From the IMG/VR virus record IMGVR_UViG_3300031578_003737, positions 1 through 22,121 of that record: DNA of 22,121 nucleotides; one strand, written 5' to 3'. Under the pieces are notes generated by a model. The model was not told the DNA's origin. It did no database searches and was given only the letters and a program-made list of their open reading frames with translations. Both the position numbers and the translations under genes were made by a program. Of this stretch, positions 4,273-22,118 are shown one piece after another. Within the stretch, counting starts at the first letter, position 1, and the number at the start of each line of letters is the position of its first letter. Origin of the DNA: a virus.

Positions 4273-4506
4273 ATGCGAAGGAGATACATTAGAAGGGGTA
4301 AGTGTAATCGGTGTGGATGGTGTTGCATAAAAGAGGGGTGTGAGCATTTGGCTTGGAATGGAAATATCGCAGTCTGTGAAATCTATGAAAGCAGATTTGA
4401 TCGCTGTAAATGGTTCCCACAAGCACCGCCTATATTGATTGATAAATGTGGGTACTACTTTCTTGATACTTGGGATGATAGAGTCGTTGGAGCCAGAGAG
4501 GTCTAA
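4273..4506 (+). CDS. YkgJ-like cysteine-cluster protein
   Basis: A 77-residue protein with eight cysteines, beginning with a basic N-terminus. Residues 11-23 form C-x2-C-x2-CC-x4-C (Cys11, 14, 17, 18, 23), with later Cys35, Cys45 and Cys59 in a CKWFP...KCGYYF context. The CxxCxxCC start and the later Cys spacing resemble the YkgJ/UPF0153 cysteine-cluster family, thought to bind zinc or an iron-sulfur centre; its biochemical role is not established. The ATG starts two bases after the previous stop, with no clear ribosome site, so translation is probably coupled. The stop overlaps the ATG of the next gene (TAATG). It is unusual to find this family at the head of phage structural genes. Confidence 0.7.
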   Translation: MRRRYIRRGKCNRCGWCCIKEGCEHLAWNGNIAVCEIYESRFDRCKWFPQAPPILIDKCGYYFLDTWDDRVVGAREV

Positions 4507-6042: not shown

Positions 6043-7857
6043 ATGCCTTTAGAATCCGATTTCACTGTGAATGATACGGCAAAAACGGTGACGCATATAG
6101 GTGGGACGGAGATTTTCACCGTATTAGCCTTTTTCCAATGGTTGGCTGCTAAGTTTGCTGCGGCAGCCTATATGGATGATGACTACCCCTTTGTATCAGA
6201 CACTCCGCAGGTTTATCGTTGGGTGAATGCTTGGGATATGGGAGACGAAGCATCGTATCAATTTTTGAAAGGTGGAGCAATCGAGAGTGCAGATGGCAAT
6301 AAACTGTTTGCCAACTTGTATTCGATTGGTTCTCAGTTTAGAAATTCAATGATCTACATAATCCAGGCCGATGCTGAGGTAACGCCTTGGTGGACACCTG
6401 GAAACATCGATATTCTCATCAAAGTTAGAGAGGGAGGTACTCCAATAGATAGTGGAAAGGTCATGGGATTTTCTAGGGATACAGATGCTCTATATGACCA
6501 CAACGAAGTTGACTTGGCTGCTGGTGGAAGAAACCCTGTTGGTATTAATACTTTTGATGACATCAACTATAAGGAGACGGGGGATATTTACCTCGATGTT
6601 GATACAGTAGCCAACTTTGATGCTGGCAACTTCGCTTACGGTGTAACATCTACGGCGTCAGGTAGAATACAATATGTCGATGTTACCAATACCAGGCTCT
6701 ATCTTTGCCAAGTAGAAGGAACTTTTGTGGTAACAGAGACAATTGTAGAAAGGGTGACTAGGGGTGGTACTAACTCAGATGGCACGGCGACCAATCACGC
6801 TACTACTGCTGAGTTTGATGTCATCAGGGGATATGATGACATTATGGAGGTCTTTGTCCAGAGAAAATTTGAGGGCGGCACGGTTGGTGGTGGCCCATTC
6901 ATAGTCGGTGAGGTTGTTAATCAGGCATCTTCTGGTTGGGCTGGTAAGTATGTAGCCATACTGAGCAACGTTCTTTATATGGAAAACACAACGGGCACGC
7001 CAGACAATACAGGCCAATTGGTAGGTGTTACATCAAGTGCAACTTATACACCAACTTCTACGTCTGCCCAAACTACCGTTGACAAGGACTTGAATAACGG
7101 TAATGGGCCACAACCTTACAACTGCGTGGTGGATTGTGCAGGTCGAACAGTTCTTCAAATTTACCAATATCTCAAATACATCAGTGCTCACAACTCAGTT
7201 GCAATAATAAACGGAGATGAGGGCGAGGAATATCGTTCAGCGAACGAGTCATTGCCATACACTGATACTAAGCAAGCTCCATTCGGCACATTCGCTGGTG
7301 GTACTTTCTTCGGCGCTAGAGGTATTTGGATTGAGGACTATGCAGTAGCGGCTTTCTCCCTTACTGATGCAGATGGCGATTTGCAGAATCCTCCAAACTA
7401 TCAGAAGGTTTCAGTTGCCCATGACGAATTAAATGGATGTCAGATTCTGATAGCAGAAAGGTCAGGGGCAAGCATCATTAAGAATCAATATGTAATAGAT
7501 ACAGTAACAACCACGACAATAGTTGTTACTACTGACATCAATCCTAATAAAGTTCCTCAAAGTGGTAATCTCAGGGTTGGAGACTGGCAAGCTACCTATG
7601 CAAGTTTTGCTAGTAAAACATTCTCAGGTGTATCCCCTGACCCGACTGGCAAAACTGGGGACTTGTATGTTCCTCAGTTAGATGTTCTTGCTGATTTTAC
7701 ATCTGAGGAGTCTGCCAATCTCATTCTAACTACCGCCTTTGATGTTAAGGCTAGGGTAAGGAAGTATGGGTGCAAGGATTACACAATGGATACTTCCTTC
7801 CCGACGACTGGTTTGGTGGTAACACCCATTCTAGCAACTGACCCACAGGCTACATAA
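6043..7857 (+). CDS. Large virion structural protein (tail/baseplate or decoration candidate)
   Basis: A 604-residue protein with a strong GGAGG ribosome site. It starts MPLESDFTVNDTAKTVTHIG and contains a conserved-looking acidic N-terminal part (MDDDYPFVSDTPQVYRW, WDMGDEASYQFL). Repeated Gly/Thr/Ser-rich beta modules follow at about residues 190-250 and 270-345 (each of the type 'GxxxG...TSTASG / VTSSAT'). Its C-terminus (ARVRKYGCKDYTM...TPILATDPQAT) matches the end of the preceding protein (RWRVRKYGYRNFK...TLVVDPQQT), so the two share a terminal domain. There is no transmembrane segment or catalytic motif. Structural assignment rests on composition, size and location among virion genes; which part of the particle it forms cannot be read from the sequence. 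Confidence 0.72.
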   Translation: MPLESDFTVNDTAKTVTHIGGTEIFTVLAFFQWLAAKFAAAAYMDDDYPFVSDTPQVYRWVNAWDMGDEASYQFLKGGAIESADGNKLFANLYSIGSQFRNSMIYIIQADAEVTPWWTPGNIDILIKVREGGTPIDSGKVMGFSRDTDALYDHNEVDLAAGGRNPVGINTFDDINYKETGDIYLDVDTVANFDAGNFAYGVTSTASGRIQYVDVTNTRLYLCQVEGTFVVTETIVERVTRGGTNSDGTATNHATTAEFDVIRGYDDIMEVFVQRKFEGGTVGGGPFIVGEVVNQASSGWAGKYVAILSNVLYMENTTGTPDNTGQLVGVTSSATYTPTSTSAQTTVDKDLNNGNGPQPYNCVVDCAGRTVLQIYQYLKYISAHNSVAIINGDEGEEYRSANESLPYTDTKQAPFGTFAGGTFFGARGIWIEDYAVAAFSLTDADGDLQNPPNYQKVSVAHDELNGCQILIAERSGASIIKNQYVIDTVTTTTIVVTTDINPNKVPQSGNLRVGDWQATYASFASKTFSGVSPDPTGKTGDLYVPQLDVLADFTSEESANLILTTAFDVKARVRKYGCKDYTMDTSFPTTGLVVTPILATDPQAT

Positions 7858-8612: not shown

Positions 8613-8881
8613 TAGTCACACGCGGCTTTGGCCTCGGTCTTTTGGTGGTCACGCGGGGTTATGGCCCACGTTGGATCACAATAGAGATAGTGGAACTGTC
8701 ACTTTATGATCGAGAGGTCAATTTGACTCTATCAATTCGAACGAATATTTTAACGCTCGATCCAATGCGAGCCTTTGGGTTAATGCCGACCAGACGAGTC
8801 GTCGATCTAACATTAGAGCCAAGAACTACCGACCTGACTGTGGAAGATAGAAGCACTGATCTGACACTTCTGTTGGAGTGA
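8609..8881 (+). CDS. Small structural-type protein with DLT repeats, 90 aa
   Basis: A 90-residue protein starting in an ATGA overlap with the upstream gene. The N-terminus contains two similar strands (IVTRGFGLGLLVVTRGYG). The C-terminal third repeats the motif (V/T)DLT at about ten-residue spacing: VDLTLEPRT, TDLTVEDRS, TDLTLLLE. An earlier degenerate copy is VNLTLSIRT. Such regular strand repeats suggest a small beta-solenoid or a fibrous assembly element. It is sandwiched between small structural-type genes and probably acts in the same substructure; no family is recognised. Confidence 0.6.
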   Translation: MIVTRGFGLGLLVVTRGYGPRWITIEIVELSLYDREVNLTLSIRTNILTLDPMRAFGLMPTRRVVDLTLEPRTTDLTVEDRSTDLTLLLE

Positions 8882-9192
8882 GTTATGTCACTAGCAGTGA
8901 GAGAGAGAGTCCCATTGAGCAGGGACGAAACGAGGAAATTTTATACAAACTCATTACGACACCCTGGGGAGGTAAGCCGTCGAACGTTTTGGTGGCGGCC
9001 TACGACGCTACCGAATCTTTCAGAGATGTAGGTTCCGCGGTACTAAAGGGTTCGTCTGAAATAGATGGTGATGTCATTACGCTTCCTGCTTTGAAGTCTT
9101 TGTCAATGGGGCACAATTATTACGTTGAGATAAGATTCACGTCTGGTGGGGATGTTAAGGAAACCCACGTTGAGGTACGTTGTGTGAGATAA
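8878..9192 (+). CDS. Small beta-rich structural-type protein, 104 aa
   Basis: A GTG start at 8878 overlaps the stop of the upstream gene (GTGA). An alternative ATG in another frame at 8884 gives only a short unlikely peptide. The protein is beta-rich: NVLVAAYDATE, VITLPALKSLSMGHNYYVEI and KETHVEVRCV match the Ig-like layout common in phage head-tail or tail accessory proteins, in which a 'D...G....I.LP.L..L..G..Y.V.I' pattern is typical. It ends two bases before the TerL gene. The role is inferred from fold pattern and location. Confidence 0.6.
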   Translation: MSYVTSSERESPIEQGRNEEILYKLITTPWGGKPSNVLVAAYDATESFRDVGSAVLKGSSEIDGDVITLPALKSLSMGHNYYVEIRFTSGGDVKETHVEVRCVR

Positions 9193-9193
9193 T

Positions 9194-11008
9194 ATGCAAT
9201 TAACCACTAAAGACCTTTTATTGATCCGCGCTGCACTTATGCGCAACTTCACAATTGAGCAACTGGATAAGTCGGGATTAATTAACGAACCGATTGACAG
9301 TCGCACAATTCGCCTTGCCTTAGCAGAGGTTGATTTTGAGTTCTTCAAGATGTTCTACCTTGAGCATCACTTCTTTCTACCGTCTGCAAGGATGCACCGT
9401 GAAATTACTGAAGAGATTGAGTATATCATTCGCACGAAGGGGAAAATCTACAGCGCAGTCGTATGGCCACGTGGTTTCGCCAAAACCACTACTGTTACGC
9501 TCGCACTACCTCTTTGGTGTGCATTACTACGCAAGCGACGTTACATTCTAATCGTCTCCGATTCTCACGATCAGGCGAAGCAACAGCTTGCTAACCTACA
9601 AAGTGAACTAGAAAACAATGAACGTATTCGTGAAGACTTCGGGGACGTACAAGGGCGTGTGTGGCAGCGTTCCGAGATTGAACTTTCCAATCGTGTTCGT
9701 ATAGAGTCCCTTGGAACGGGCATGAAGATTCGTGGACGTAAGTATTTGCAATTCAGACCCGACCTCATTATTCTTGACGACATTGAGAACTTGAAGAGTG
9801 TGCAATCCAAGCTACAACGTGAGACAACCTACTCGTGGTTAACACAGGAGGTCATTCGTGCTGGTTGGGATGACACAAAAATCTTCATCGTAGGTAACTT
9901 CCTCCACTTCGATTGCCTACTGAAGCGTGTTGTAGCTAATCCAATGTTTAGGCACATGGTTTTTCAGGCCGTAGTCTCATGGGCTGAGAACCAAGCCCTC
10001 TGGGATACATGGCGCGGCCTCATAACCGACCTCAGTGATGAGCGTAAGAACGAGACGGCTAGTATGTTCTTCGAGCTAAACAAAGATGAGATGCTTAAAG
10101 GTGCTGAAAGTGCCTGGTCAGCAGGTTACTCCTACTATGATCTCATGGTCATAAAGGTTTCCGAAGGCGATGTGTCGTTCTTTACCGAGCTACAGAACGA
10201 TCCACGAGACCCATCGAGATGTATCTTCAGCCGTTGGTACACGTATAGAAAAGAGTTTCGACCCAACAAAGATGATGTACCAGAGCTTTGGTTAATCCCA
10301 AACAAAGAAGGTGCTTCAGTGCGCCTGATTGATTGTAAGATATTCGCATTCACTGATCCTTCGTTGGGTAAAACGTCATCCGCTGACTATTCTGCAATTG
10401 TTATTATCGCCAAAGCGCCTAGCAGACAGATGTTTGTCTTGGAAGCCGATCTGAAGAGGCGTCCACCGACGCAAATAATGGCGGATCAAAACGCATACAC
10501 ACTGGATTATACTTTCTCGCGTTGGGGAATTGAGAGCACACAGTTTCAGGCTTTCTTCGCGTCCGAGTCTGCACGTGTGAGTATGGAAGCCGGTACTAAT
10601 ATTCCATTCATGCAGGTCAACCAGCAAAGCAATAAAGAGCTTCGCATACAATCGCTACAACCCGATTTGGAGAATGGTTACTTGCTCCTGCTCGAAGGTG
10701 GACAGGATTTGTTGAAGCAACAGTTAACCGAGTTCCCGGTTGGTGCTTACGATGACGGCCCAGATGCTTTGGAGGGTTGTCGTACTATAGCACAGAAGTG
10801 GGAACCTATTATGAGTTCTGAGATAATGCAATCAGAAGCCCACGACTTTGGAAGAACATCCGTACCACATGGTTATAGACCGATTGGCTCTAGTGATCCT
10901 TACGCCGAGCATGAAGCAAAAGCGATAGAAGAGGAGAACGCACGTCGTGTGCTACAGAAACTCCCACCACTACCAGAGCCAGCGTTTGTACCCATAATGT
11001 TCTGGTGA
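9194..11008 (+). CDS. terL: Terminase large subunit
   Basis: A 604-residue packaging motor with ATPase and nuclease parts in the normal order. The ATPase has a Walker A-like loop WPRGFAKTT (residues 91-99) with Lys98, and a Walker B LIILDDIE (191-198) with Asp195-Asp196. A coupling-motif-like segment (IFIVGN, 230-235) follows. The RNase H-like nuclease begins at FAFTDPSLGK (385-393), with Asp388 as a likely metal ligand. WGIESTQFQ (Glu447) and DDGPDALE (520-527) supply further acidic residues. The length is slightly above the usual 450-600. The protein uses ATP to move DNA into the prohead through the portal and cuts the concatemer. It is preceded by small structural-type genes and followed by a MazG-like gene; the portal gene lies 7 kb downstream beyond the sugar cassette. 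Confidence 0.95.
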   Translation: MQLTTKDLLLIRAALMRNFTIEQLDKSGLINEPIDSRTIRLALAEVDFEFFKMFYLEHHFFLPSARMHREITEEIEYIIRTKGKIYSAVVWPRGFAKTTTVTLALPLWCALLRKRRYILIVSDSHDQAKQQLANLQSELENNERIREDFGDVQGRVWQRSEIELSNRVRIESLGTGMKIRGRKYLQFRPDLIILDDIENLKSVQSKLQRETTYSWLTQEVIRAGWDDTKIFIVGNFLHFDCLLKRVVANPMFRHMVFQAVVSWAENQALWDTWRGLITDLSDERKNETASMFFELNKDEMLKGAESAWSAGYSYYDLMVIKVSEGDVSFFTELQNDPRDPSRCIFSRWYTYRKEFRPNKDDVPELWLIPNKEGASVRLIDCKIFAFTDPSLGKTSSADYSAIVIIAKAPSRQMFVLEADLKRRPPTQIMADQNAYTLDYTFSRWGIESTQFQAFFASESARVSMEAGTNIPFMQVNQQSNKELRIQSLQPDLENGYLLLLEGGQDLLKQQLTEFPVGAYDDGPDALEGCRTIAQKWEPIMSSEIMQSEAHDFGRTSVPHGYRPIGSSDPYAEHEAKAIEEENARRVLQKLPPLPEPAFVPIMFW

Positions 11009-11045: not shown

Positions 11046-11420
11046 ATGACAAGTGAGGAGTTGGCAACTGCTGTTAGGAATTTCTGTGCACATTTTGTTA
11101 TGCCGGAAGGTCTTTTGCAGCTTTGCGAAGAGCGTGTTCTTGGCCCAGGCGATGAGCAATACTCACATGGCAATCAGCAGGTGTTTGAATTGCTACCAAT
11201 TGCCAAACTTGCTGATATGTTTGAAGAGGAGATTGCAGACGCGCTTGTGTATGTAGTAATGTTGTGCATCCGTTTCAAACAGTGGAGCTATCATTCCACT
11301 GTTCAGCACCTAGAGACTTTTGCCAAAGCCTTAATGGTAGCGTACTGTGATCTCGAAATGTCTCTCGATGATGAGCTTTTCGCCGAAAAGGTAAGCGAGG
11401 ACGATGCCAAAGTTTGTTGA
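11046..11420 (+). CDS. MazG-like nucleotide pyrophosphohydrolase
   Basis: A 124-residue all-helical protein with a GGGGA site before the ATG. The central segment MFEEEIADALVYVVMLCIRF (residues 58-77) has the metal-binding ExxxD-type motif EExxD (Glu61, Glu62, Asp65) followed by a hydrophobic helix. This is the signature of all-alpha NTP pyrophosphohydrolases of the MazG/dUTPase-2 superfamily. A basic/Gly-rich loop (YSHGNQQVFELL) precedes it, as in related phage enzymes. Such enzymes hydrolyse (d)NTPs to monophosphates and pyrophosphate; in phages they are thought to adjust nucleotide pools or blunt alarmone signalling. The substrate cannot be told from sequence. The last 17 bases overlap the HNH gene start. 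Confidence 0.68.
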   Translation: MTSEELATAVRNFCAHFVMPEGLLQLCEERVLGPGDEQYSHGNQQVFELLPIAKLADMFEEEIADALVYVVMLCIRFKQWSYHSTVQHLETFAKALMVAYCDLEMSLDDELFAEKVSEDDAKVC

Positions 11421-11964
11421 TGAGACGGGGAATCATTATGGGAGATTAACAGTATTGAAGCGTGCCGAAAGGGTACATGGAAAGGACAGCGCATACTGGC
11501 ATTGTCGTTGTGACTGTGGAAACGAAACTATTGTTCGTAGCACCTGTCTGCGCGGTGGACATACGAAAAGCTGTGGTTGTCTGCAAGAGGAGCGACGCTG
11601 GGAGGCTCTCGCTTTACCGGAGGGTGTAGCTGCTTTTAATTCAATGGTCAGCAATATACAGCATGGTGCTAAGGCACGCCAACTTGAATGGAATCTAACG
11701 GATGAACAGGTGGCCTACCTGACCAAACAACAATGTTATTACTGTGGTGCAGAACCATCACAAGTGTCACATCCTGCCAAATGTAATGGGGTGTATGTTT
11801 ACAACGGACTTGACCGCATTGACAACGATAAGGGTTACATGATTGACAATGTAGTTCCTTGCTGTATCAAGTGTAACCGTGCAAAGCGCACAATGACGTT
11901 GGGAGAGTTCGAGTCGTGGATTGTGAGAGTATATGAGCAGCTTATGGAGCGTACTGGGAAATGA
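11404..11964 (+). CDS. HNH homing-type endonuclease 1
   Basis: A 186-residue free-standing endonuclease. Residues 9-60 form a zinc/DNA-binding module: GNHYGRLTVL, then HCRCDCGNE (Cys34, 36, 38) and KSCGCL (Cys57, 59). The HNH-type nuclease occupies about residues 110-170: CYYCG (Cys111, Cys114), LDRIDNDKGY and NVVPCCIKCNRAK (Cys153/154, Cys157). The first His of canonical HNH is replaced by the DRIDN form common in phage enzymes. It should cut DNA at a long recognition site and promote its own spread. It lies directly before the sugar cassette, with starts and stops overlapping both neighbours. It is paralogous to the 19634-20497 protein. Confidence 0.9.
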   Translation: MPKFVDETGNHYGRLTVLKRAERVHGKDSAYWHCRCDCGNETIVRSTCLRGGHTKSCGCLQEERRWEALALPEGVAAFNSMVSNIQHGAKARQLEWNLTDEQVAYLTKQQCYYCGAEPSQVSHPAKCNGVYVYNGLDRIDNDKGYMIDNVVPCCIKCNRAKRTMTLGEFESWIVRVYEQLMERTGK

Positions 11965-12776
11965 CACAAGATTCTGTTGCTACCACGATAATTATTCCGA
12001 CCTTTAATGGTAAGGAGCACTTGGAGCGTTGTTTGTCGGCTATTAGTCGGAATACTGCCGCGCCTTATAAACTGCTGATTGCTGATGACAGGAGCTCGAA
12101 CCCTGCGTTTCGTGCTTATTTACGTGGACTTAAAAGTAGGTACAGCATTATAAAGTCACATGTGCGCCGTGGTTTTGCCGGCATCAACAATTGGGCTGTA
12201 TCCAAAACAGATACCAGGTACATTTGTCTCCTCAATTCTGATACTGAGCCTGGTTATCAGTGGTTGACGTTTATGCTAGAAGAACTTGACAACAATGGGG
12301 ATGTTGGTATAGTTGGTGCTAAATTGATGTATCCACCGCAGAAGGGTTGGAGTCTCGGTGGTAGCATTCAGCACGCAGGTGTCGCACGCAATAGCGACGG
12401 GCTCCCATATCACATATTTGGTGGACAGCCTGTGGACTTTCCAGCGGCTAATGTGCGCCGAGAACTGAATGCTGTAACTTTTGCGTGTGTGCTAATCCGT
12501 CGCACGTTATGGGACGAATTAGGTGGTCTCGATAAAGGCTACATCATAGGACAATTTGAAGACATCGACTTTTGCTGGAAAGCACGAAAGAACGGTTGGA
12601 AAATCGTGTATCAACCAAAAGCTACACTTCTACATTATGAGCATGGTTCAGGTGATGATGTTGTCTTGAAACATAGTATGCAAAATAGGGATCGTCTTAT
12701 GCGTGTTTGGGGGAACTTGGGCAGTGATGAGCATTTGTTTACGCAGGGGGAAAGATGTTTGAGTTTTCCGTTGTAA
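11961..12776 (+). CDS. GT2-family glycosyltransferase A
   Basis: A 271-residue GT-A-fold transferase. It opens with TIIIPTFNGKEHLERCL, has the nucleotide-sugar binding pair ADD (41-43) and a metal-binding NSD (92-94, a DxD variant). Further on it has the acceptor/catalytic segment QFEDIDFCWKARKNGW (198-213), and the HYEHG motif (225-229) typical of rhamnosyl/galactosyl-type GT2 enzymes. It transfers a sugar from a nucleotide donor to an unknown acceptor, in the cytoplasm since there are no membrane segments. It starts in an ATGA overlap with HNH endonuclease 1 and overlaps the next transferase by 22 bases. It is the first gene of the seven-gene sugar cassette. The donor sugar cannot be assigned. 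Confidence 0.9.
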   Translation: MTQDSVATTIIIPTFNGKEHLERCLSAISRNTAAPYKLLIADDRSSNPAFRAYLRGLKSRYSIIKSHVRRGFAGINNWAVSKTDTRYICLLNSDTEPGYQWLTFMLEELDNNGDVGIVGAKLMYPPQKGWSLGGSIQHAGVARNSDGLPYHIFGGQPVDFPAANVRRELNAVTFACVLIRRTLWDELGGLDKGYIIGQFEDIDFCWKARKNGWKIVYQPKATLLHYEHGSGDDVVLKHSMQNRDRLMRVWGNLGSDEHLFTQGERCLSFPL

Positions 12777-13627
12777 TTGCTGTTTATAACCGACGAGAGA
12801 GCCTATATCTCACTCTCTGTGCGTTGGACAAGACGCTATTGCACTACCAACAGCCTGTTGAAATAGTTGTCGTAGACGATGGTTCTACAGATAATCCTCT
12901 CGAAGTCATGTTTGAGTTTCAAGATAAATTTGCACTGCAATATCGTTGGCAACCACACAACGGCTTTCAAGAGGCTTTGGCGATCAATCGCGGATGTGCA
13001 ATTGCACGTGGTCACAACTTTCTAATCACGGACGCTGACATCCTTCTAACACCGGAATCACTTGCACATCTTGCCAACATCATTCGAGCAAATCCAGGAA
13101 TTATCGTTGCTGGTCGCTATGATTGGATGCTACCAATGAAAATACGTCCATATGACATTTACTACAATTGGGACAAAATAGTTGACGGAACACTTCCTCC
13201 AGCGCAGTTTGGTGGTAATCCAAAAGGTTTTATCGGCGTCGATCCACGGCACATAAGCGACCCACATCTGTTTGATGGAGATAGATTACATACACAGTTT
13301 GCCGCGATACTTTTTGCTGGCGTTCTAATGTTTCCCAGAGCACAGTACACTGCATTGGGTGGTTTTGATGAGCAAATGGTTGGGCATGGTGGTCAGGACT
13401 GTGAGTTGAGTATTCGTGCACAACAGGCAGATTATCACGTGATTTTTTCAGGGCTGGTGCATGGGTTTCATATGTATCACGACAGGGATCAGGTTGCCAA
13501 TCAGACGGCATGTAACAGGAATGTCCAATACATAGCAAAGAAACACAACCTGGAAGATGTGGGCCTGTACATGTGGCATGTTGGGAACGTTATGGGCATA
13601 GCACGTGCAGGGGAAAAGTTACCATGA
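12755..13627 (+). CDS. GT2-family glycosyltransferase B
   Basis: A 290-residue GT-A transferase. FSVVIAVYNRRESLYLTLCA opens the nucleotide-binding fold, and VVVDDGSTD (38-46) and TDADIL (92-97) are the donor and metal sites. GGFDEQMVGHGGQDCELSIR (202-221) matches the C-terminal galactosyltransferase-like region, where ED/QDxEL contacts the acceptor and base. A His-rich stretch (HGFHMYHDRD) follows and could add a metal ligand. The segment GRYDWMLPM (120-128) is repeated in the next gene as GRYDWMPPM, and the DxD motifs lie at the same residue numbers. Genes B and C are thus a tandem duplication that has diverged. No membrane anchor. Donor and acceptor unknown. Confidence 0.9.
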   Translation: MFEFSVVIAVYNRRESLYLTLCALDKTLLHYQQPVEIVVVDDGSTDNPLEVMFEFQDKFALQYRWQPHNGFQEALAINRGCAIARGHNFLITDADILLTPESLAHLANIIRANPGIIVAGRYDWMLPMKIRPYDIYYNWDKIVDGTLPPAQFGGNPKGFIGVDPRHISDPHLFDGDRLHTQFAAILFAGVLMFPRAQYTALGGFDEQMVGHGGQDCELSIRAQQADYHVIFSGLVHGFHMYHDRDQVANQTACNRNVQYIAKKHNLEDVGLYMWHVGNVMGIARAGEKLP

Positions 13628-14481
13628 CAAGTATTTGCGTCGTGATGGCAGTACACAATCGTATAGACAGTGTGCACTGTGCTCTCCATTCATGGGCATT
13701 GCAAACACGCAAGGGCTTTTCTGTAGTTGTTGCAGATGATGCAAGCACCGAGGACATGTGTGGGTTAGTTAAAGAATACATGGGTGCACTAAATGTATTT
13801 TATGTCTCTACTGGAGGCTCTGTGCCTCGCACTGTTCCAGTGGCGCTGAATGTAGGTACAAAAGCAGTGCCTTTAGAAACGACACATCTTTGGTACACAG
13901 ATGGCGACATCATCTTCAATAGTAAAGCTATGCAGGTGGCCTACGAACACATTGCGCTGCATCCTAATAGAGTCATAACTGGTCGGTATGATTGGATGCC
14001 ACCCATGATCTTTTCACCACAAGATTTGGAACGGGACTTTCAAGGGTTTGTAGATTGCAGATTCCCGCGTAGGGATGTTGATGCTGCTCATATAGTGCGA
14101 CGTGTGGATCATCGAACAGGAAGTCGTGTACCAAACTGGTTCCAACATCAACTTCTCGACTCTTGCAGGCCCATTCTAGGAGCCAACGTAATCATGCCGG
14201 TGCAAGCATGGTATGACATTGGCGGTTGGGACGAGCACATTCCTGGCGCAAATGCAAATGATTGCGACTTTGGTTGGTGTTTAACTGATGCGGGTTATCA
14301 TCTACTGACTTGTGAGTGCATCATAGGCTATCATCAGTGGCATCCGAGAGACATCAAAACGCTGGAACTCTTTAAGGTATCCTTGCCGTATATCTTTCGT
14401 AAGCATGGTGAGGAAGTTCCTGACCAGTGGAAGCCCTATGATACATTTAAGGAAAAGAATTGTGGCCAAGTTCACCTATGA
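13624..14481 (+). CDS. GT2-family glycosyltransferase C
   Basis: A 285-residue GT-A transferase. The ATG at 13624 (MTSICVVMAVHNRIDSVHCA) is preferred over an upstream start because it lies in an ATGA overlap with gene B, has GGGGAAA upstream, and begins exactly where the paralogue does. VVVADDAS (34-41) and TDGDII (92-97) supply donor and metal binding. GGWDEHIPGANANDCDFGW in the C-terminal half corresponds to the acceptor region of gene B, with NDCDF replacing QDCEL. A long overlap with the next frame is avoided if that gene starts at 14462. Its function is probably related to B but on a different acceptor or linkage. Confidence 0.88.
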   Translation: MTSICVVMAVHNRIDSVHCALHSWALQTRKGFSVVVADDASTEDMCGLVKEYMGALNVFYVSTGGSVPRTVPVALNVGTKAVPLETTHLWYTDGDIIFNSKAMQVAYEHIALHPNRVITGRYDWMPPMIFSPQDLERDFQGFVDCRFPRRDVDAAHIVRRVDHRTGSRVPNWFQHQLLDSCRPILGANVIMPVQAWYDIGGWDEHIPGANANDCDFGWCLTDAGYHLLTCECIIGYHQWHPRDIKTLELFKVSLPYIFRKHGEEVPDQWKPYDTFKEKNCGQVHL

Positions 14482-15463
14482 TGGTGTACAAATAGAAGTC
14501 TCTGAACCTAGACGCTGGCCTATCGAGTGGATTACATTTAGGTGTCATCCATGTACCGATTGGTTTGGTGTAGGACAGTATATGAGTGGAGAACTTCCCG
14601 AAGCTCCAATTGTTATTTGTAAGGATTCCTTTGTTGTGTTGGATGGTTGGCATAGATTGGCAGCAGCATGGCGATTGGGTCATCATTATATTATGGTACA
14701 ATTTGCAGACTTTCATCTCGGAGGTGCTCAAGATCGCTGTCACATAGATAAGGTGAATTGGATGGAAACGTTGCGTCCGTGGGTTGATCTCGAATGTATC
14801 TCAGGAAGCTATCATAGAAAAGATTTTGATGTTACCTCGTTTGCTGAGGTAGTTGCTTCACTTAAGCAAGCAGGCGACATTCATATGCCAGTAGCACGAT
14901 GGTGGGAACATACAAGGGCGGTTGTCTGCTTGGGCGTATTAGTCGGTCGGCGCATCTTAGATGTAGGGACAAGAGAAAGTATTATTCCAGCTTATCTTGC
15001 GGACAGGGGTGCTTACGTTGTGGCTACGGATTTGAACGTAAAGCAAATAGCGTTGCACCCTAACGTTGAGATCACACAGGCAGATGCAACGGCGTTGCAG
15101 TTTGAGGATGCCAGTTTCGATCATGTTCTTTGCACTGCTTGCATAAAACACATCACCAATGATACATTAGCAGTATCTGAGATGTTGAGGGTGTTAAAAC
15201 CTCGCGGACTATTGGCATTGTCATTCGATTTTGGACAAGAATATGCAGAGTATCCTAGTGAGGCTACAGGACGGCGCATCTACAATAAGGCAGCCGTTTA
15301 TACACGTCTTATTGATCCGTTCCGAGATGTGGCTATGTTGTGTGAGCCTGCCGACTTTGACCGCAATGATTGGAATGACTGGCCAATCGAAAACCAAGCG
15401 CCCTCTGTCTTTAGGAAAGGCGTAAACGTGCAAGTAGCATTTGTGCTGATGAGGAAACGATGA
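14462..15463 (+). CDS. ParB-like domain fused to SAM-dependent methyltransferase
   Basis: A 333-residue two-domain protein. The GTG at 14462 is chosen because AAGGA lies about eight bases upstream; the frame is open from 14405, deeper in the previous gene. The N-terminal domain (about 1-90) has PIVICKDSFVVLDGWHRLAAAWRLG, the ParB/sulfiredoxin-type D-G-x-H-R motif at Asp61-Arg65. ParB-fold proteins bind nucleotides such as CTP. The C-terminal domain (about 160-260) is a class I methyltransferase: ILDVGTRES (165-173), VATDLN (187-192), ADATALQF (207-214) and VLCTACIKHI. The expected Gly-x-Gly after DVG is altered to GTRES, seen in some sugar-cluster methyltransferases. It probably methylates a sugar or glycan; the ParB-like part may sense or process a nucleotide. 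Confidence 0.82.
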   Translation: MAKFTYDGVQIEVSEPRRWPIEWITFRCHPCTDWFGVGQYMSGELPEAPIVICKDSFVVLDGWHRLAAAWRLGHHYIMVQFADFHLGGAQDRCHIDKVNWMETLRPWVDLECISGSYHRKDFDVTSFAEVVASLKQAGDIHMPVARWWEHTRAVVCLGVLVGRRILDVGTRESIIPAYLADRGAYVVATDLNVKQIALHPNVEITQADATALQFEDASFDHVLCTACIKHITNDTLAVSEMLRVLKPRGLLALSFDFGQEYAEYPSEATGRRIYNKAAVYTRLIDPFRDVAMLCEPADFDRNDWNDWPIENQAPSVFRKGVNVQVAFVLMRKR

Positions 15464-16512
15464 AAATAGCATTCGTGTACACCAAGGGGCGACCAGGAAG
15501 TTGGGCAGATCAAACTTTTGACTTGCAGGACTTTGGTGGTTCTGAAGGAAGCATGATTCGGTTTGCACAGGAATTTGTTGGTCTTGGCCATGAGGTAACG
15601 ATTTACACTTCAGGGGCCAAAGCACAGCGACACGCTGGTGTTGAGTGGCACGACTTTGTTGGTGGTATATGCTATGACCAGACTTTTGACGTGGTTATTT
15701 CTGTGCGATTTCCTGTTGCCTTTGCTGCTGAGGCTGAACTTGGTGCGTTGTTTTGCACAGACCCAGAAATACCAGAGTTGCAACGTTGGGTTGCACGCGG
15801 AGACATAAATCTGGTCATCGTCATCAGTGAGTACCAGAAGCGCCTGTTTCAGTCGCAACACCCAATAGATGAGAAGCTATATCTCGTTAGTAATGCAGGT
15901 GTGGTTTACGCAGACTATGTTGGTAAGAACATCTCTAAGGTGCCAGGAAGATGTATCTACTGTAGTGTAGCAGATCGTGGTTTGGAACACTTGGTATCAA
16001 TATGGCCAAAGATTCGTAGGGAAGTTCCTTGGGCAACGTTGCATATTACTGGAGGTTATTCTTTGTGGGGCTTAGATATACCACTACAAAAACAGCCTGT
16101 CCTTCGTCAGATGTTAGCGTTAGAGGGTGTGACTTATTTGGGGGTTATTTCTCGTGAGAAGCTAATTGAGGCACAATTGCAGAGTCAGGTGTTGCTACTT
16201 CCAGGGAAAGAGCTCTCTCCAGAAATGTGTTGTATGGCTGCTATGGAGTGTGCGGCAGCAGGTAATGTTTTGATAGTTGGTGACATAGCGGCTCTTCCTG
16301 AGCGTGTCATCGAGGGAGAGACTGGTTATGCTGTTAAGCATGAGGGTGATTGGCAGACAGTTTTTGCACAAAAGGCAATAGTGGCACTTACCAGTCCTCG
16401 CTTACAAGAAATGCAAGCACTAGCTCGTGCAGGCGAGTGTGCACATGATTATTCAGTATTGGCTCCTGAGTGGATAACACGCTTCGAGGAAGAGATAAAT
16501 GCACGCAGGTAA
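15460..16512 (+). CDS. GT4-type (GT-B fold) glycosyltransferase
   Basis: A 350-residue protein with a GAGGAAA ribosome site and an ATGA overlap with the upstream gene. KIAFVYTKGR starts the first Rossmann domain, and DFGGSEGSMIRFAQEFVGLGHEVTIYTSG is the family's Gly-rich acceptor loop followed by the typical 'LxxxGHEVTIYT' strand. CSVADRGLEHLVSIWPKI begins the second, donor-binding domain. LLLPGKELSPEMCCMAAMECAAAGNVLIVGD carries the E-x7-E-like nucleotide-sugar motif of GT4 enzymes. It should work as a cytoplasmic retaining transferase. It differs in fold from the three GT2 enzymes, so the cassette builds at least two kinds of linkage. Donor unknown. Confidence 0.88.
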   Translation: MKIAFVYTKGRPGSWADQTFDLQDFGGSEGSMIRFAQEFVGLGHEVTIYTSGAKAQRHAGVEWHDFVGGICYDQTFDVVISVRFPVAFAAEAELGALFCTDPEIPELQRWVARGDINLVIVISEYQKRLFQSQHPIDEKLYLVSNAGVVYADYVGKNISKVPGRCIYCSVADRGLEHLVSIWPKIRREVPWATLHITGGYSLWGLDIPLQKQPVLRQMLALEGVTYLGVISREKLIEAQLQSQVLLLPGKELSPEMCCMAAMECAAAGNVLIVGDIAALPERVIEGETGYAVKHEGDWQTVFAQKAIVALTSPRLQEMQALARAGECAHDYSVLAPEWITRFEEEINARR

Positions 16513-17038
16513 GAATGTCACTATCTATGAGTTGGCAAAACTGGTGTATCCTGAAAACGTCACGCTTGGGCACCACGTCATCATAGACGATTTCGTTTTC
16601 ATCGTGGCTAAACTGCCATCTGAGATTGGCAGCTATGTTCACATAGCTTCGTTCACCTCCATCACTGGAGGTGGGAGTTTTAACATAGGAGACTACAGTA
16701 CGCTATCCAGTGGTGTTCGCATATTTACTGGGACAGAAAACGTTAACGGGGACAGTTTGCTAGGCGCAGCAATTCCAGCGCCGTATCGAAAAGCAATCCG
16801 TTCGCACGTACAGATTGGAAAGCATTGTATGGTGGGTGCCAACACTGTTGTTCTGCCAGGCGTGGTTATTCCTGATGGTACAGTGGTTGGAGCGATGTCT
16901 CTAGTATTGCAAGATACGACCTTAGAATCTTGGAGCATTTACGCTGGATGTCCTGTACGAAAACTCAGAGGGCGATCTAGTATGATGATACTTGCACTAG
17001 AAGCAAAGTTGCGTGCAGACGAAGGAGCGGCGACGTGA
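16499..17038 (+). CDS. Hexapeptide-repeat acyltransferase (acetyltransferase)
   Basis: A 179-residue left-handed beta-helix protein. Hexapeptide rungs run from about residue 22 to 140: VTLGHHVIIDDFVFI, IGSYVHIASFTSITGG, FNIGDYSTLSSGVRI, VQIGKHCMVGANTVVLPGVV and IPDGTVVGAMSLV. His48 in VHIASF is in the usual catalytic-His position, and SIYAGCPVRKLRGR is the typical exit of sugar O- or N-acetyltransferases. The family transfers acetyl from acetyl-CoA, usually as a trimer. GAGGAAGAG precedes the ATG, and the gene overlaps both neighbours (14 and 4 bases). It sits next to a sugar aminotransferase, so N-acetylation of an amino sugar (as by FdtC/QdtC/WbbJ-type enzymes) is likely, though O-acetylation is possible. 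Confidence 0.9.
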   Translation: MHAGKNVTIYELAKLVYPENVTLGHHVIIDDFVFIVAKLPSEIGSYVHIASFTSITGGGSFNIGDYSTLSSGVRIFTGTENVNGDSLLGAAIPAPYRKAIRSHVQIGKHCMVGANTVVLPGVVIPDGTVVGAMSLVLQDTTLESWSIYAGCPVRKLRGRSSMMILALEAKLRADEGAAT

Positions 17039-18198
17039 AACTTGCGATATTTGGGGCAAAGCCAGCATTTAGCACTCCGTTGCACGTTGGTAGGCCCAAC
17101 CTTGCTGCGTCTACAAAACTTCTTTCTGCCTTTGAGAAGATACTTGATAGCAAATGGCTCACGAACGACGGTTGTTGGGTTCGTTCACTTGAAGGTGAAA
17201 TAGGGCAATACTTGAACGTAAAACATTGCATAGCTGTGGCAAACGGAACGCTAGGATTGGAGATAGCAGCTAAAGCCCTTATGCCTGAATGCGGTGAGGT
17301 CATTGTACCTTCGTTCACATTCGCTGCGACCCCACACGCATTGGCGTGGCAGGGATATAAGCCTGTTTTTGCAGACATCAATATGAGCACTCATGTTCTT
17401 GATCCCAATGATGTGGAAGCGAAAATCACTGACCGTACTATTGGCATTCTCGGTGTACACACTTGGGGTACTCCATGTGCTGTAGATGCGTTAACTGTAA
17501 TAGCGAAAAAGCACGGCTTGAAGCTCTTTTTTGACTCTGCTCATGCGTTTAGTTGTAGTAGTATGTACGATGGTAGAAGTTCTGGAAGTTTTGGTTGTTG
17601 TGAAGTATTCTCATTTCACGCCACGAAGTTTTTCAACACAGTTGAGGGTGGTGCAATTACCACCAATGATGCTAGATTAGCTCAAAGGTTTAGAGAATTG
17701 CGGAACTTTGGGTTTGTTGGAGACGGTACGCACGAGGCATCCGATATTGGTATTAATGCCAAAATGAGTGAACTCCATGCTGCTGTGGGTGTGATAAACT
17801 TGGTGGAGATTGGGTCGTTTGTTACCCGCAATTTTGTGAACTATGCTGGATATATGCACGGTCTACAACATCCAAATCTGTGTGTCTATCCACATGAAGG
17901 TGGGAACTATCAATATGTGGTTATTGAACTGTTGAAAGGGGCACTGTCGGCAGACGTTTTAACTAAAGTGTTGCGTGCTGAGAATGTTCTAGCGAGACGC
18001 TATTTTTCACCGCCATGTCACAAGATGGTTCCATACAACCAGGAGGCGCATTTTCTACCAATAACTGATGTCGTCTCGGACAGGGTTTTTGTCCTACCAA
18101 CCGGCATGTCAGTGGGGCAGCAGGATGTAGACAAAATCTGCGAGCTAATTCTATATTGTGTTGACAATGCAGAGGCGATTATGGAGAAAGTAACATGA
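17035..18198 (+). CDS. DegT/DnrJ/EryC1-family PLP sugar aminotransferase
   Basis: A 387-residue aminotransferase starting at a GTG with AAGGAG upstream. GRPNLAAS is the family's N-terminal entry, ANGTLGLEIAAKALM (70-84) binds PLP phosphate, and FFDSAHAFS (165-173; Asp167, His170) contacts the pyridine nitrogen. FSFHATKFFNTVEGGAI (192-208) holds the Schiff-base Lys198, and GINAKMSELHAA (239-250) contacts the sugar nucleotide. The enzymes transfer an amino group from glutamate to a keto sugar nucleotide (3- or 4-position). No gene for the keto sugar intermediate is present, so the host must supply it. Together with the acyltransferase it could make an N-acetylated dideoxy amino sugar for the transferases. 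The stop overlaps the portal gene (ATGA). Confidence 0.92.
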   Translation: MKLAIFGAKPAFSTPLHVGRPNLAASTKLLSAFEKILDSKWLTNDGCWVRSLEGEIGQYLNVKHCIAVANGTLGLEIAAKALMPECGEVIVPSFTFAATPHALAWQGYKPVFADINMSTHVLDPNDVEAKITDRTIGILGVHTWGTPCAVDALTVIAKKHGLKLFFDSAHAFSCSSMYDGRSSGSFGCCEVFSFHATKFFNTVEGGAITTNDARLAQRFRELRNFGFVGDGTHEASDIGINAKMSELHAAVGVINLVEIGSFVTRNFVNYAGYMHGLQHPNLCVYPHEGGNYQYVVIELLKGALSADVLTKVLRAENVLARRYFSPPCHKMVPYNQEAHFLPITDVVSDRVFVLPTGMSVGQQDVDKICELILYCVDNAEAIMEKVT

Positions 18199-19619
18199 CA
18201 GATACACCTAAAAGGTCAGGTTTTATTGGTCGGGTTCTTGCAAAGATTCGTACAATGCTTAGTACACCACTTGTACCTGAGACTCAGCCGACTTCCGCTA
18301 TCGGCGTTGTAGAAGACAACCTGGATATGCTCTCGAATCTTTTCTTCAATATCTCGACCAAGCGCGTGAATGTGTACATAGATACTGAGGAAATGGATGA
18401 AACCGTTGACGAGGTAACTTCAGCACTTGATATTCTGGCTGACAATGCTGTTAACTCGGAGCAAGGTGCTGGTCAATCTTTCATCCTTCACTATGTCGGC
18501 GTGCCTGAAGCTCTAGTGAATAACATAGAGCAAATGCTGGCACGCACTAGGTGGGCAGATAAAGCCTACTCGTTTGCTAGGCAGACTCTCAAATACGGTG
18601 ACTGTTTTGTTCAGTTTGTCTTTGACAAACAATTCAATATTGTGCGCCTTATGGATATGCCTGCAAGCACTATGAGGCGAAATGAGGACAAACAGGGTTT
18701 GCTGCTGAATGGTAGTAAGCAGGGTGAATTTGCATTTGAGCAGTATGTCAATGCCGGTATGCAGTTTGTCGCTGGCTTTTATCCGTGGCAGATGGAACAT
18801 ATGCGATGGAATCGCGTTGGGGGTAGCAAGTATGGAACTTCGCTGCTCTTCACAGCACGTACAGCATGGAAAAAGTTGCAGGCAATGGAGGAAGCATTAG
18901 TAATTAACTGGCTTACTCGCGCCTTCGCTCGCTTACTATTTATCATTGACACCAGTGGTAAAGGGCCGATGGAATCCCTGCAAGCTATAGAAGACTTTAA
19001 ACACACGCTGAGGACGCGTGATGTCGCTACTGATACAAAAGGCACGGAGCAACTATCAGTGGTCAAAGATGTCTACATTGCTAAGTCGTATCGTGAAATG
19101 GGAGGTCGTGTTCAGGAGGGTTTGACAGACGTTAAGGTACTAGATACCAGCAACACAGGATTCTGGAACTTGTCAGCAATTGAGTATTACCAGAACAAGA
19201 TCATCACGTCACTGAAAGTTCCAAAGGCACACCTTGGCATAGAGCGTGACATCAATGCTAAGGCTACCTTGCAGCAACAGGATCGTAGATTTGCACGCAC
19301 CGTCAGGCGTGTGCAATCAATGTTGAGCATGTCGATAGAGCATACCATTGATCTGCAATTGCTAATGTGGGGACTTGATCCTAACAGTGTGGAATACAAA
19401 ATTGTGTGGCCGGCCCCTAGTTGGGAAGATGAACAGGAGAAGAGTGTCACCACGAAGAACTATGTTGATGCTGCTGCGGTAGCACTGAAGTTGGGTATCG
19501 TAGACCACACTTACATTCGTAGTAATTGGTTGGGTATGTCGCAGAAGGAGCTTAGGGAAATGAGTGGGTTGGAAAAAGATGTTGAGCCAGAAGCAGGGCC
19601 GAGGTCGAACGCTGATTAG
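18195..19619 (+). CDS. Portal protein (T4 gp20-like)
   Basis: A 474-residue portal of the T4 gp20-like family. KYGDCFVQFVFDKQFNIVRL (133-152) is the wing/stem region, WNRVGGSKYGTSLL (205-218) the conserved core, and YYQNKIITSLKVPKAHLG (about 335-352) the 'xYFxxKLxxALxVP' family signature. This is followed by the basic RRFARTVRRVQ helix. The protein forms the dodecameric channel for packaging and the head-tail joint. The C-terminus (SNWLGMSQKELREMSGLEKD...) is repeated in divergent form at the end of the next gene. It starts in an ATGA overlap with the aminotransferase and is separated from TerL by the sugar cassette. Confidence 0.93.
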   Translation: MTDTPKRSGFIGRVLAKIRTMLSTPLVPETQPTSAIGVVEDNLDMLSNLFFNISTKRVNVYIDTEEMDETVDEVTSALDILADNAVNSEQGAGQSFILHYVGVPEALVNNIEQMLARTRWADKAYSFARQTLKYGDCFVQFVFDKQFNIVRLMDMPASTMRRNEDKQGLLLNGSKQGEFAFEQYVNAGMQFVAGFYPWQMEHMRWNRVGGSKYGTSLLFTARTAWKKLQAMEEALVINWLTRAFARLLFIIDTSGKGPMESLQAIEDFKHTLRTRDVATDTKGTEQLSVVKDVYIAKSYREMGGRVQEGLTDVKVLDTSNTGFWNLSAIEYYQNKIITSLKVPKAHLGIERDINAKATLQQQDRRFARTVRRVQSMLSMSIEHTIDLQLLMWGLDPNSVEYKIVWPAPSWEDEQEKSVTTKNYVDAAAVALKLGIVDHTYIRSNWLGMSQKELREMSGLEKDVEPEAGPRSNAD

Positions 19620-19633
19620 TGAGGGATTTTGTT

Positions 19634-20497
19634 ATGCCAGCGATGGTCAACGAAATGGGTAATCGCTACGAAAGATTGACGGTGCTGGAACGCACTCAAA
19701 ACAACAGACATGGAGCAGCACAGTGGTTATGCAGATGTGATTGTGGAGAGTTAACCACTGCGCTTGGTAGTAGTCTCCGTTTTGGGAGGACGAAAAGTTG
19801 TGGATGTTTACACAAGGAAGCTGTGAGGCGTGTGGGCGTGTCCAACGTTGTTAATCGTGAAGGTCATAAATATGGCAGGTGGACTGTCATTAAAAGGTGT
19901 GGTTCTAATGGAAGTGGGCAGGCGGCTTGGTTGTGCAAATGTGACTGTGGAAAGGAGGGTGTCGTTACAGGTACTAACCTTCAATCAGGAACTTCTAAGA
20001 GCTGTGGATGTTTGCGGAGGGAAATTGTAAGAAGGTTACACACTTTACCTGAAGGCGAAGCAGCTTTTAACGCAGTTGTTAGTGTAATGGAGGGTAGTGC
20101 TAGGGTACGCGGTTACGAATGGCAGCTAACAAAAGAGCAAATTCGTTACCTTACCAAACAATCGTGTCATTATTGTGGGGATGCTCCATCACAGGTTTAT
20201 AAAAACCCACGGGTAAATGGTAATTATGTCTACAACGGCCTAGACCGCGTTGACAACGACAAGGGTTATACAACTGATAATGTTGTGTCTTGTTGCTTTG
20301 TGTGTAATCGCGCAAAAAGCGTGATGACTTTGAAAGAGTTTAGATCGTGGGCCTTTAGGCTTTGTGAACACCTTGCTGGTTGTACGAGCTGGATGGACAT
20401 GAGTCAAAAACAATTGAAAGAGCTTGAGGGAATAGAGAAGAACATAAAACCAGAACCGGAATCGGAACCAGAACCAGAATCAGACAACAAAGAGTGA
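19634..20497 (+). CDS. HNH homing-type endonuclease 2, carrying a portal-like C-terminal tail
   Basis: A 287-residue paralogue of the 11404-11964 endonuclease. The ATG at 19634 is chosen over an upstream GTG because GAGGGA lies seven bases before it and the protein then starts MPAMVNEMGNRYERLTVL, like MPKFVDETGNHYGRLTVL in its paralogue. It has two copies of the CxCDCG/SCGC zinc module (residues 10-60 and 80-126) where the paralogue has one. The HNH core follows: CHYCG, LDRVDNDKGY and NVVSCCFVCNRAK. About 37 residues after the point where the paralogue ends resemble the portal C-terminus (SWMDMSQKQLKELEGIEK versus NWLGMSQKELREMSGLEK), followed by an acidic Pro/Glu/Ser run. That tail is probably a leftover of an interrupted portal gene. 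Confidence 0.9.
   Translation: MPAMVNEMGNRYERLTVLERTQNNRHGAAQWLCRCDCGELTTALGSSLRFGRTKSCGCLHKEAVRRVGVSNVVNREGHKYGRWTVIKRCGSNGSGQAAWLCKCDCGKEGVVTGTNLQSGTSKSCGCLRREIVRRLHTLPEGEAAFNAVVSVMEGSARVRGYEWQLTKEQIRYLTKQSCHYCGDAPSQVYKNPRVNGNYVYNGLDRVDNDKGYTTDNVVSCCFVCNRAKSVMTLKEFRSWAFRLCEHLAGCTSWMDMSQKQLKELEGIEKNIKPEPESEPEPESDNKE
20384..20497 (+). repeat. Divergent copy of portal C-terminal coding sequence
   Basis: This segment encodes SWMDMSQKQLKELEGIEKNI plus an acidic tail, resembling the portal end encoded at 19521-19619. The DNA copies are clearly diverged. The extra segment starts where the paralogous HNH protein stops, marking a probable insertion junction. Confidence 0.72.
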
Positions 20498-20732: not shown

Positions 20733-22118
20733 ATGCCTTACAAAAAGGGAACGACACCACGACAGTTGAAAGGTAGAAACATTCCGCAGAGGTTTATGGA
20801 CATCTTTATCAGCACGTACAACAGCTTGGTAGCAAAATACAAGGATGTTGGACGGCGTTTCAGGATTGCGTACTCTGCCATGAATAACGCGCTACGTAAG
20901 GCTGGCTATCGGACGGGTACAGACGGTAAATGGCACAAAGTCCGCAAGGGTGAAGCCTTTGCTTCTGTTCTTGAGGAACAAATCAATGAGGACATGATTG
21001 CTGGCATCTTTGGTCAGGGCATTGTTGCTGAAGAGCTTGCTTTGTCAGAGGCATTGAGCAGCGGGTTACATTACGAGGGAATTGCGCTGATAGACAATGT
21101 TATCAGTCAACAAGGCACAGGGTGCGAGCGTTTCTACTCACCGGAGTTCAATAATCTCTGCATGGAGAATACCAATGCTCATATGGTACTTGGGCACGCC
21201 ATTACCATTTACAACAAGCACGGCAGTGCTTATGGTGGTCTATTCACAATGCCAACCAAGAATCCCGTTGGTAAGATTACCAAACCTATGTGGCGGGATG
21301 GTGAGGTAATTCGTTATGCGGCGTTCATTTCCCCTACATCGGAGGGAAAGGATTTGATTCAACTGTATTATGATGGCATAGTCAAAGAAACTTCGGTGCG
21401 CATGAATGAGGTCACAAGTTTTACACAACCAATAGAGGCAGATGGAGACGACGGTGAAAAAGAGACCACTGGTTATCTTGAGGTGATGATGAATGCAAAA
21501 ATTATTGGGGTTGACTTTTGTGACGAAGCTGGTATAATTGGGGCAGGAATAACTAAGCCGGAAAATCTTGGTTTCGATTTTAGTGAGGAAAGTGAGGAAA
21601 GCGACATGGACTATAAAGAACTGACTCTGGAGCTTCTGGAGAGTAATGCAAAGGCGTTGCTGGACGAATACCTGACAAAACACTTGGACGCTGCAAAGGC
21701 AAAGATCGACGCGCTAACCACAGAAGTTGAGACACTGAAGGCTACTGTGCCTGATGTTGCACTCACAGAAAAGGTCACTGAATTGTCTGGTCTGCTTAGT
21801 GGAGCAAACAGTAAGGTAGCAGGGTTGGAACTTAATCTTGCTATTGAGAAGGCTTCGCAGCTTGGCCTTAGTTCTGTGATAGCAGATGTTTTGCGCGAGG
21901 AAGCAAAAAGCGTAGATGAGATTGCAGCCAAGTTGCCTGGGATTAAAGAGCGTGCAATGGCAACTTATCTAGCGTCTTTTGGAACAGAGGTTCGCCCACA
22001 AGGTGTGAGCAAAGACAGTGATGACGATGACAAGGATGATTTGAAACCGGACATTATAGACAAAAAGGAATTCACCGAAGCTCAAGAGGAAATGGCGGGA
22101 TTCGCCAGTTCTGGATAA
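20733..22118 (+). CDS. ChaB-like/prohead protease with C-terminal scaffold
   Basis: A 461-residue fusion with an ideal GGAGG ribosome site. Residues 1-72 resemble ChaB (IPQRFMDIFISTYNSL..., YSAMNNALRKAGYRTGTDGKW). The protease spans about 110-280: HYEGIALIDNVIS, RFYSPEFNNLC, ITIYNKHGSAYGG (His163 a candidate catalytic His), PVGKI, WRDGEVIRYAAFIS and ETSVRM (Ser221 a candidate nucleophile). The C-terminal third (from about 290) is a helical, charged, coiled-coil-like scaffold (KIDALTTEVETLKATV, LTEKVTELSGLL) ending in an Asp-rich tail. The protein shapes the prohead around the portal, then cleaves head proteins. An internal start at 21606 could yield the scaffold alone. The stop is just before the window edge, where the major capsid gene is expected. 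Confidence 0.82.
   Translation: MPYKKGTTPRQLKGRNIPQRFMDIFISTYNSLVAKYKDVGRRFRIAYSAMNNALRKAGYRTGTDGKWHKVRKGEAFASVLEEQINEDMIAGIFGQGIVAEELALSEALSSGLHYEGIALIDNVISQQGTGCERFYSPEFNNLCMENTNAHMVLGHAITIYNKHGSAYGGLFTMPTKNPVGKITKPMWRDGEVIRYAAFISPTSEGKDLIQLYYDGIVKETSVRMNEVTSFTQPIEADGDDGEKETTGYLEVMMNAKIIGVDFCDEAGIIGAGITKPENLGFDFSEESEESDMDYKELTLELLESNAKALLDEYLTKHLDAAKAKIDALTTEVETLKATVPDVALTEKVTELSGLLSGANSKVAGLELNLAIEKASQLGLSSVIADVLREEAKSVDEIAAKLPGIKERAMATYLASFGTEVRPQGVSKDSDDDDKDDLKPDIIDKKEFTEAQEEMAGFASSG
21606..22118 (+). CDS. Nested scaffold protein from internal start
   Basis: An in-frame ATG at codon 292 of the protease gene has GAGGAAA (21594-21600) five bases upstream. It lies exactly at the protease-scaffold junction (SEESEESD-MDYKELTLELL). 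Initiation there would give a 170-residue scaffold without the protease, as in the nested C/Nu3 genes of lambda. This is inferred from the site's position and strength only. Confidence 0.6.
   Translation: MDYKELTLELLESNAKALLDEYLTKHLDAAKAKIDALTTEVETLKATVPDVALTEKVTELSGLLSGANSKVAGLELNLAIEKASQLGLSSVIADVLREEAKSVDEIAAKLPGIKERAMATYLASFGTEVRPQGVSKDSDDDDKDDLKPDIIDKKEFTEAQEEMAGFASSG

Follow-up and report, generated by a model that had tools for sequence, protein, structure and literature searches.

Glycans are covalently attached to the capsid and tail-tube proteins of the mycobacteriophages Che8 and Rita, at the C-termini of these proteins, as described in the passages of PMC11256854 and PMC12619734 that cite Freeman et al. 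2023. In bacteria, the viosamine island of Pseudomonas syringae (vioA, vioB, vioM, vioT) is associated with N-acylated deoxythymidine diphosphate (dTDP)-4-amino-4,6-dideoxyglucose on the flagellin glycan (PMC3927599), and mimivirus and the chloroviruses carry virion glycan genes and 2OMeVio4NAc fibrils (PMC10117803). Here, we analyze a stretch of DNA from an uncultured tailed phage, IMG/VR record IMGVR_UViG_3300031578_003737, positions 1–22,121, one strand (the window, 22,121 nucleotides), in which an island of seven glycan genes lies between the genes for the large terminase subunit (TerL) and the portal. In related phages, a further glycosyltransferase gene adjoins the gene for the major capsid protein (MCP). 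Together, they probably constitute a virion-glycosylation system within the head operon, composed of a priming transferase encoded beside the capsid gene and an exchangeable glycan island, with the capsid protein as the probable acceptor.

Phage virion glycosylation as such is already known; the new element is an invariant capsid-adjacent transferase combined with an island in the head operon that is conserved at its edges and swapped in its interior. Like the mycobacteriophage system, this one has phage-encoded glycosyltransferases in a tailed phage and, probably, a glycan on the virion. In Maravista, a related phage, the cited passages locate the putative transferases close to the 3′ genome end; here, one transferase is fixed beside the MCP, and nucleotide-sugar tailoring enzymes belong to an exchangeable island apart from it. 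In chemistry, the closest analogues appear to be the viosamine island and the mimivirus 2OMeVio4NAc pathway. The viosamine island likewise clusters an aminotransferase, an acyltransferase, a methyltransferase and a transferase, but it is bacterial, serves a flagellin glycan, lies between conserved housekeeping genes and includes the acyl-chain genes vioR, vioS and acp. Mimivirus and the chloroviruses share with the phage a clustered viral amino-sugar pathway with transferases and a virion glycan, and the best fold match of the capsid-adjacent transferase is a chlorovirus enzyme. In contrast to the phage, they are giant eukaryotic viruses with a uridine-diphosphate-linked pathway of which further steps are virus-encoded; no relation by descent is shown.

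Island genes and their operon

Seven open reading frames (ORFs) at positions 11961–18198, between the genes for TerL and an HNH endonuclease on the left and a T4-type portal on the right, make up the island. Their presence and order agree with the original prediction, and their families are backed by Pfam matches. They encode three family 2 glycosyltransferases (GT2a, GT2b, GT2c), a methyltransferase with a ParB-like N-terminal half (ParB-MT), a GT4-type glycosyltransferase (GT4), a hexapeptide acyltransferase (HexAT) and a sugar aminotransferase (DegT). The MazG label once given to the small protein that follows TerL has been dropped, as this protein gave neither a Pfam nor a PHROG match.

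Each of the eight junctions from the HNH gene to the portal gene overlaps, and promoter- or terminator-like sites in the island region show no excess over shuffled sequence. The island is therefore co-translated with the packaging and portal genes, forming one translationally coupled late operon, as had been proposed. The accompanying statement that almost all junctions are ATGA or GTGA overlaps holds in part. Five of the eight are 4-base overlaps when GT2c is started at 13624, and three are longer, namely GT2a/GT2b (22 bases), GT2c/ParB-MT (about 20 bases) and GT4/HexAT (14 bases).

The N-terminal half of ParB-MT contains the motif LDGWHRLA, but it has no Pfam match at E<=5, and its best PDB match, the ParB-fold protein SbnI, is non-significant (E=0.22). 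Resting on this motif and match, the ParB assignment is weak. An AlphaFold model, suggested earlier as a check, reached a predicted local distance difference test score (pLDDT) of 34 from four sequences and was not usable.

Variation of the island and constancy of the capsid flank

The relatives compared here are metagenomic contigs (G- and L-numbered) that are fragments or of uncertain completeness; absences across these records are consequently soft. In G008 and G009 (with L021 and L022), the TerL–portal interval holds all seven genes in the same order, and L073 retains the order up to the contig end. This is the recurrence at the same site that the original prediction proposed to look for. 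TerL is 50–52% identical in all of these contigs, and the retention of genes, order and site at this distance argues that the island is not a chance assembly. In G008, G009 and L130, GT2a and GT2b form one continuous ORF of approximately 600 amino acids.

A different pattern is seen in the closer relatives G001–G004 (TerL 77–85%, portal 74–85% identical). Their left edge keeps GT2a (70–76%) and GT2b (58–67%), and G003 and G004 also retain DegT (72–75%), either at the right edge or close to it. The interior of G001–G004 consists of other glycan genes, encoding ATP-grasp, epimerase/dehydratase, RGP-type, CmcI-type methyltransferase and GNAT proteins as well as more transferases. The GT2a tree matches the portal tree. 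For HexAT, a clade of the window and G004 is not rejected (approximately unbiased test, p-AU 0.07), so only the sequence identities hint at a transfer of the middle block from one lineage to another.

The distance between TerL and portal is 4.2–11.1 kb in contigs with an island at this site and at most 51 bases in L015, L048, L050, L052, L055–57, L063, L065 and L067. Relatives without the cassette had been named as a possible objection, and several do have an empty gap at this site, but L015, L052 and L056/L057 hold glycan genes elsewhere in the operon. Two GT2 genes, a CmcI-type methyltransferase gene and a radical-SAM gene lie just upstream of TerL in L056/57, a GT2 gene lies upstream of TerL in L052, and L015 has a set similar to that of L056/57 after the capsid-adjacent transferase and before an SU10-type adaptor. 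The location of the glycan genes thus shifts without leaving the head operon. Rather than a constant set of seven genes, the cassette represents one form of an exchangeable island.

The capsid flank is constant. After the MCP gene (phrog_138), the next phage gene starts a GT4-methyltransferase of approximately 620 amino acids (GT620), consisting of an N-terminal domain of about 60 residues, a GT4-type transferase (phrog_2170, 1.7e-32) and a C-terminal part with a motif resembling those of S-adenosylmethionine (SAM) methyltransferases. The predicted structure adopts a GT-B fold (pLDDT 86), and its best PDB match is the chlorella-virus glycosyltransferase 3oy2 (5e-14). GT620 follows the MCP in 38 of 39 MCP contigs (tblastn), of which some duplicate a single population; in the 39th, L016, the flank is truncated but reads the GT620 N-terminus. 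The two genes are separated by 1–89 bases, or by about 500 in contigs that bear an insertion, in L024 a LAGLIDADG gene. Every cassette-less relative showing the MCP flank retains GT620. The window ends before the MCP gene, but the near-identical contig L008 continues from a homologue of its last ORF into the MCP and the start of GT620. Because L008/L087, with a portal identical to that of the window, show this order, the window phage very probably has an MCP-adjacent GT620 as well.

In L015 (5226–8132), MCP and GT620 form one in-frame ORF of 968 amino acids. We set this fusion aside as a probable deletion or assembly artefact, since it lacks the conserved capsid C-terminus and since in L016, from the same metagenome and 85% identical in DNA, the capsid protein has its usual C-terminus and GT620 starts as a gene of its own.

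Table 1 Features of the window flanking and forming the island.
Feature	Position	Strand	Evidence and remarks
TerL, left flank of island	9194..11008	+	phrog_38 1.4e-93
Small conserved protein	11046..11420	+	no Pfam/PHROG match; homologues 53–62% in L004, L005
HNH homing-type endonuclease	11404..11964	+	phrog_374 1.9e-23, phrog_1035 1.1e-19
GT2a, conserved left-edge glycosyltransferase	11961..12776	+	PF00535 1.2e-17; 70–76% in close relatives
GT2b, second of conserved pair	12755..13627	+	PF00535 9.4e-19; chondroitin-synthase-like profile 4.7e-24
GT2c glycosyltransferase	13624..14481	+	PF00535 2.1e-6; start likely 13624, not 13573
ParB-MT, ParB/SbnI-like motif domain and SAM methyltransferase	14462..15463	+	Methyltransf_11 1.4e-17; start 14462 or 14405/14438
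GT4-type glycosyltransferase	15460..16512	+	PF13692 (Glycos_transf_1/GT4) 9.7e-10
HexAT, hexapeptide (left-handed beta-helix) N-acyltransferase, AntD-like	16499..17038	+	PF00132 4.3e-13; PDB 3vbi 4.5e-31
DegT/DesI-like pyridoxal phosphate (PLP) sugar 4-aminotransferase	17035..18198	+	PF01041 2.4e-88; TIGR04427 1.2e-120; PDB 2po3 6e-100
Portal, right flank of island	18195..19619	+	Portal_T4 4.7e-32
Second HNH homing-type endonuclease	19619..20497	+	phrog_374 1.2e-37
ORF upstream of MCP	20733..22118	+	probable protease/scaffold, from position

Genes of the HNH and LAGLIDADG types are scattered through the head operon (window 11404–11964 and 19619–20497; L009:7400–8194 and 14850–15599; L024:5943–6407), often at island or MCP borders, and might promote the exchange of their neighbours. 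TerL of L056 (3142–6156; also L055 and L057) contains an in-frame LAGLIDADG intein (Intein_splicing 1e-18), inserted within the Walker A motif (PRGHGK^C ... HN^TSW). A calcineurin-like phosphoesterase gene (PF00149, 3e-4), which is not in the window, stands between TerL and GT2a in three close relatives (L007:11828–12661; homologues in L005 and L004). Radical-SAM/SPASM enzymes (L056:2293–3141, L015:9908–10831) accompany glycan genes outside the TerL–portal site. Between a gene resembling the small terminase subunit (TerS) and TerL, the window encodes two long proteins without profile matches (4506–6032 and 6043–7857), which are alike at their C-termini (RVRKYG...DPQ-T) and are candidate virion decoration or fibre proteins. 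In G009, a uracil-DNA glycosylase domain forms the N-terminal part of a Family A DNA polymerase (L029:7853–10240; UDG 1.3e-21, PolA 1.6e-62).

A putative amino-sugar pathway

DegT and HexAT have bacterial enzymes as their closest solved relatives, DesI (2po3) and AntD (3vbi). Residues 2–382 of DegT align with positions 7–389/390 of the DesI model TIGR04427, and the PLP lysine lies in the motif SFHATK. CalS13 was considered as the identity of 2po3 and dropped, as NCBIfam and the literature favour DesI. From its sequence, we regard DegT as a relative of DesI, not DesI proper. The product of DesI is dTDP-4-amino-4,6-dideoxyglucose. The substrate of DesI is a dTDP-linked sugar with a C-2′ hydroxyl, and the enzyme reportedly shares an invariant Thr, Asp, Ser, Lys and Asn with two related aminotransferases (PMC8040287). 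Inspection of the 2po3 alignment revealed all five of these residues in DegT. The structure matched by HexAT, 3vbi, is one that we take to be AntD, the anthrose N-acyltransferase. The phage homologues keep the key Ser and have Glu in place of the Asp; in AntD these positions are presumably Ser84 and Asp94.

A HexAT–DegT pair also occurs in Ilyobacter, followed by rfbA and a dTDP-glucose 4,6-dehydratase gene, and the pair recurs in Azospirillum. A scan of 12 phage records found no nucleoside-triphosphate (NTP) transferase (control 14/14), nor did G000, G008 and G009, which carry the island, yield a GDP_Man_Dehyd-type dehydratase, so the keto-sugar most likely comes from the host pool of dTDP-4-keto-6-deoxyglucose. 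The earlier proposal of an N-acetylated amino sugar made from a host keto intermediate is supported by the DesI- and AntD-like enzymes and the lack of an own NTP transferase, except that "N-acetyl" should read "N-acyl". The two enzymes thus point to an N-acylated dTDP-4-amino-4,6-dideoxyglucose. ParB-MT need not methylate this sugar, as it adjoins GT4 in every contig that showed both, L130 among them, and the analyzed stretch of L130 yielded neither HexAT nor DegT.

From enzyme families and homology, we infer the following order of steps. GT620 would start the glycan by adding one sugar to a head protein, most probably the MCP, and the GT2a/GT2b pair, followed by GT2c and GT4, would extend the glycan. 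DegT would convert host dTDP-4-keto-6-deoxyglucose to dTDP-4-amino-4,6-dideoxyglucose, which HexAT would N-acylate, and one of the transferases would add the product, probably as a cap. ParB-MT, as the partner of GT4, may methylate a sugar, probably one that GT4 handles. Exchange of the middle genes would give each phage a different glycan, plausibly to evade recognition or to tune surface interactions.

Probable acceptor of the glycan and alternative explanations

That the glycan decorates a virion component had been suggested from co-expression with head genes. The relatives lend this strong circumstantial support, chiefly through GT620 being fixed beside the MCP, and the capsid protein is the acceptor that this position suggests. 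Several points weigh against virion glycosylation as set out above. The capsid protein is a putative acceptor; a late operon position alone would fit a change of the host surface as well; and the two long proteins upstream of TerL are equally possible acceptors. The DegT score of 403 bits lies under the DesI equivalog cut-off of 650 bits, the supply of the dTDP-keto-sugar is an assumption, given that scans of genome contigs identified no host, and the records are fragments or of uncertain completeness.

An island that instead alters the host surface polysaccharide, by serotype conversion or superinfection exclusion, is unlikely in our judgement. The enzyme families are typical of O-antigen and exopolysaccharide clusters, the HexAT–DegT pair is found in bacterial polysaccharide clusters, and there are weak PHROG matches to GtrB-like proteins. 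However, Gtr-mediated O-antigen conversion relies on a membrane flippase/transferase with several transmembrane segments, whereas none of the seven island proteins has such a segment (maximum 19-residue hydropathy 1.66), and no membrane transferase, flippase, polymerase or undecaprenyl-phosphate enzyme is encoded within the island. The island is, moreover, co-translated with head genes, and portal and MCP alignment patterns (two scans of bacterial genome contigs, two patterns each) retrieved no relative to suggest a prophage. In an isolate-dominated phage collection, the closest TerLs are at most 41% identical to that of the window, and tblastn with GT2b and ParB-MT gave no match.

A glycan carried by tail fibres or by beta-rich proteins encoded upstream of TerL, and not by the capsid, is rather improbable. 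Two long proteins are encoded between the TerS-like gene and TerL, and a homologue of ORF 8878–9192 stands between DegT and portal in G009, but the long upstream genes were undetected in most relatives, whereas the MCP-adjacent transferase is universal in the sample.

DNA modification, which the original prediction had kept open, now seems very improbable. Phage glycosyltransferases can modify DNA, according to literature cited in PMC12619734, and relative G002 encodes an RGP-type protein. Against glycosylation of a modified base, a hydroxymethyl-base synthase of the thymidylate-synthase/hydroxymethylase family was found in 0 of 9 records of up to 72 kb (control 9/14; records may be incomplete), the replication module of G009 is ordinary, with no modification enzyme among the scanned proteins, and the set of four distinct transferases plus enzymes for amino-sugar and methyl tailoring looks like a pathway to an oligosaccharide. 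A Tet_JBP search, in which no control gave a signal, was uninformative. It is likewise hardly credible that the island is cargo without virion function, such as a fortuitously acquired accessory metabolic set, for although its content varies strongly and in several lineages TerL and portal are direct neighbours, order and site are kept across lineages with TerL about 50% identical, catalytic motifs are intact and GT2a tracks the portal tree.

Within virion glycosylation as the preferred reading, we tentatively postulate, as a possibility slightly short of even, a dedicated capsid-glycosylation system, in which an invariant priming transferase and an O-antigen-style island with a swappable interior give each phage its own capsid "serotype". 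If virion glycosylation holds, tailed phages would run modular, exchangeable virion glycans, much as bacteria vary their O-antigens and giant viruses coat their fibrils. The genes would offer a genetic handle on the roles of virion sugars in escape from recognition, stability and attachment, and the MCP-adjacent GT4-methyltransferase would serve as a reusable marker for glycosylated phages in metagenomes.

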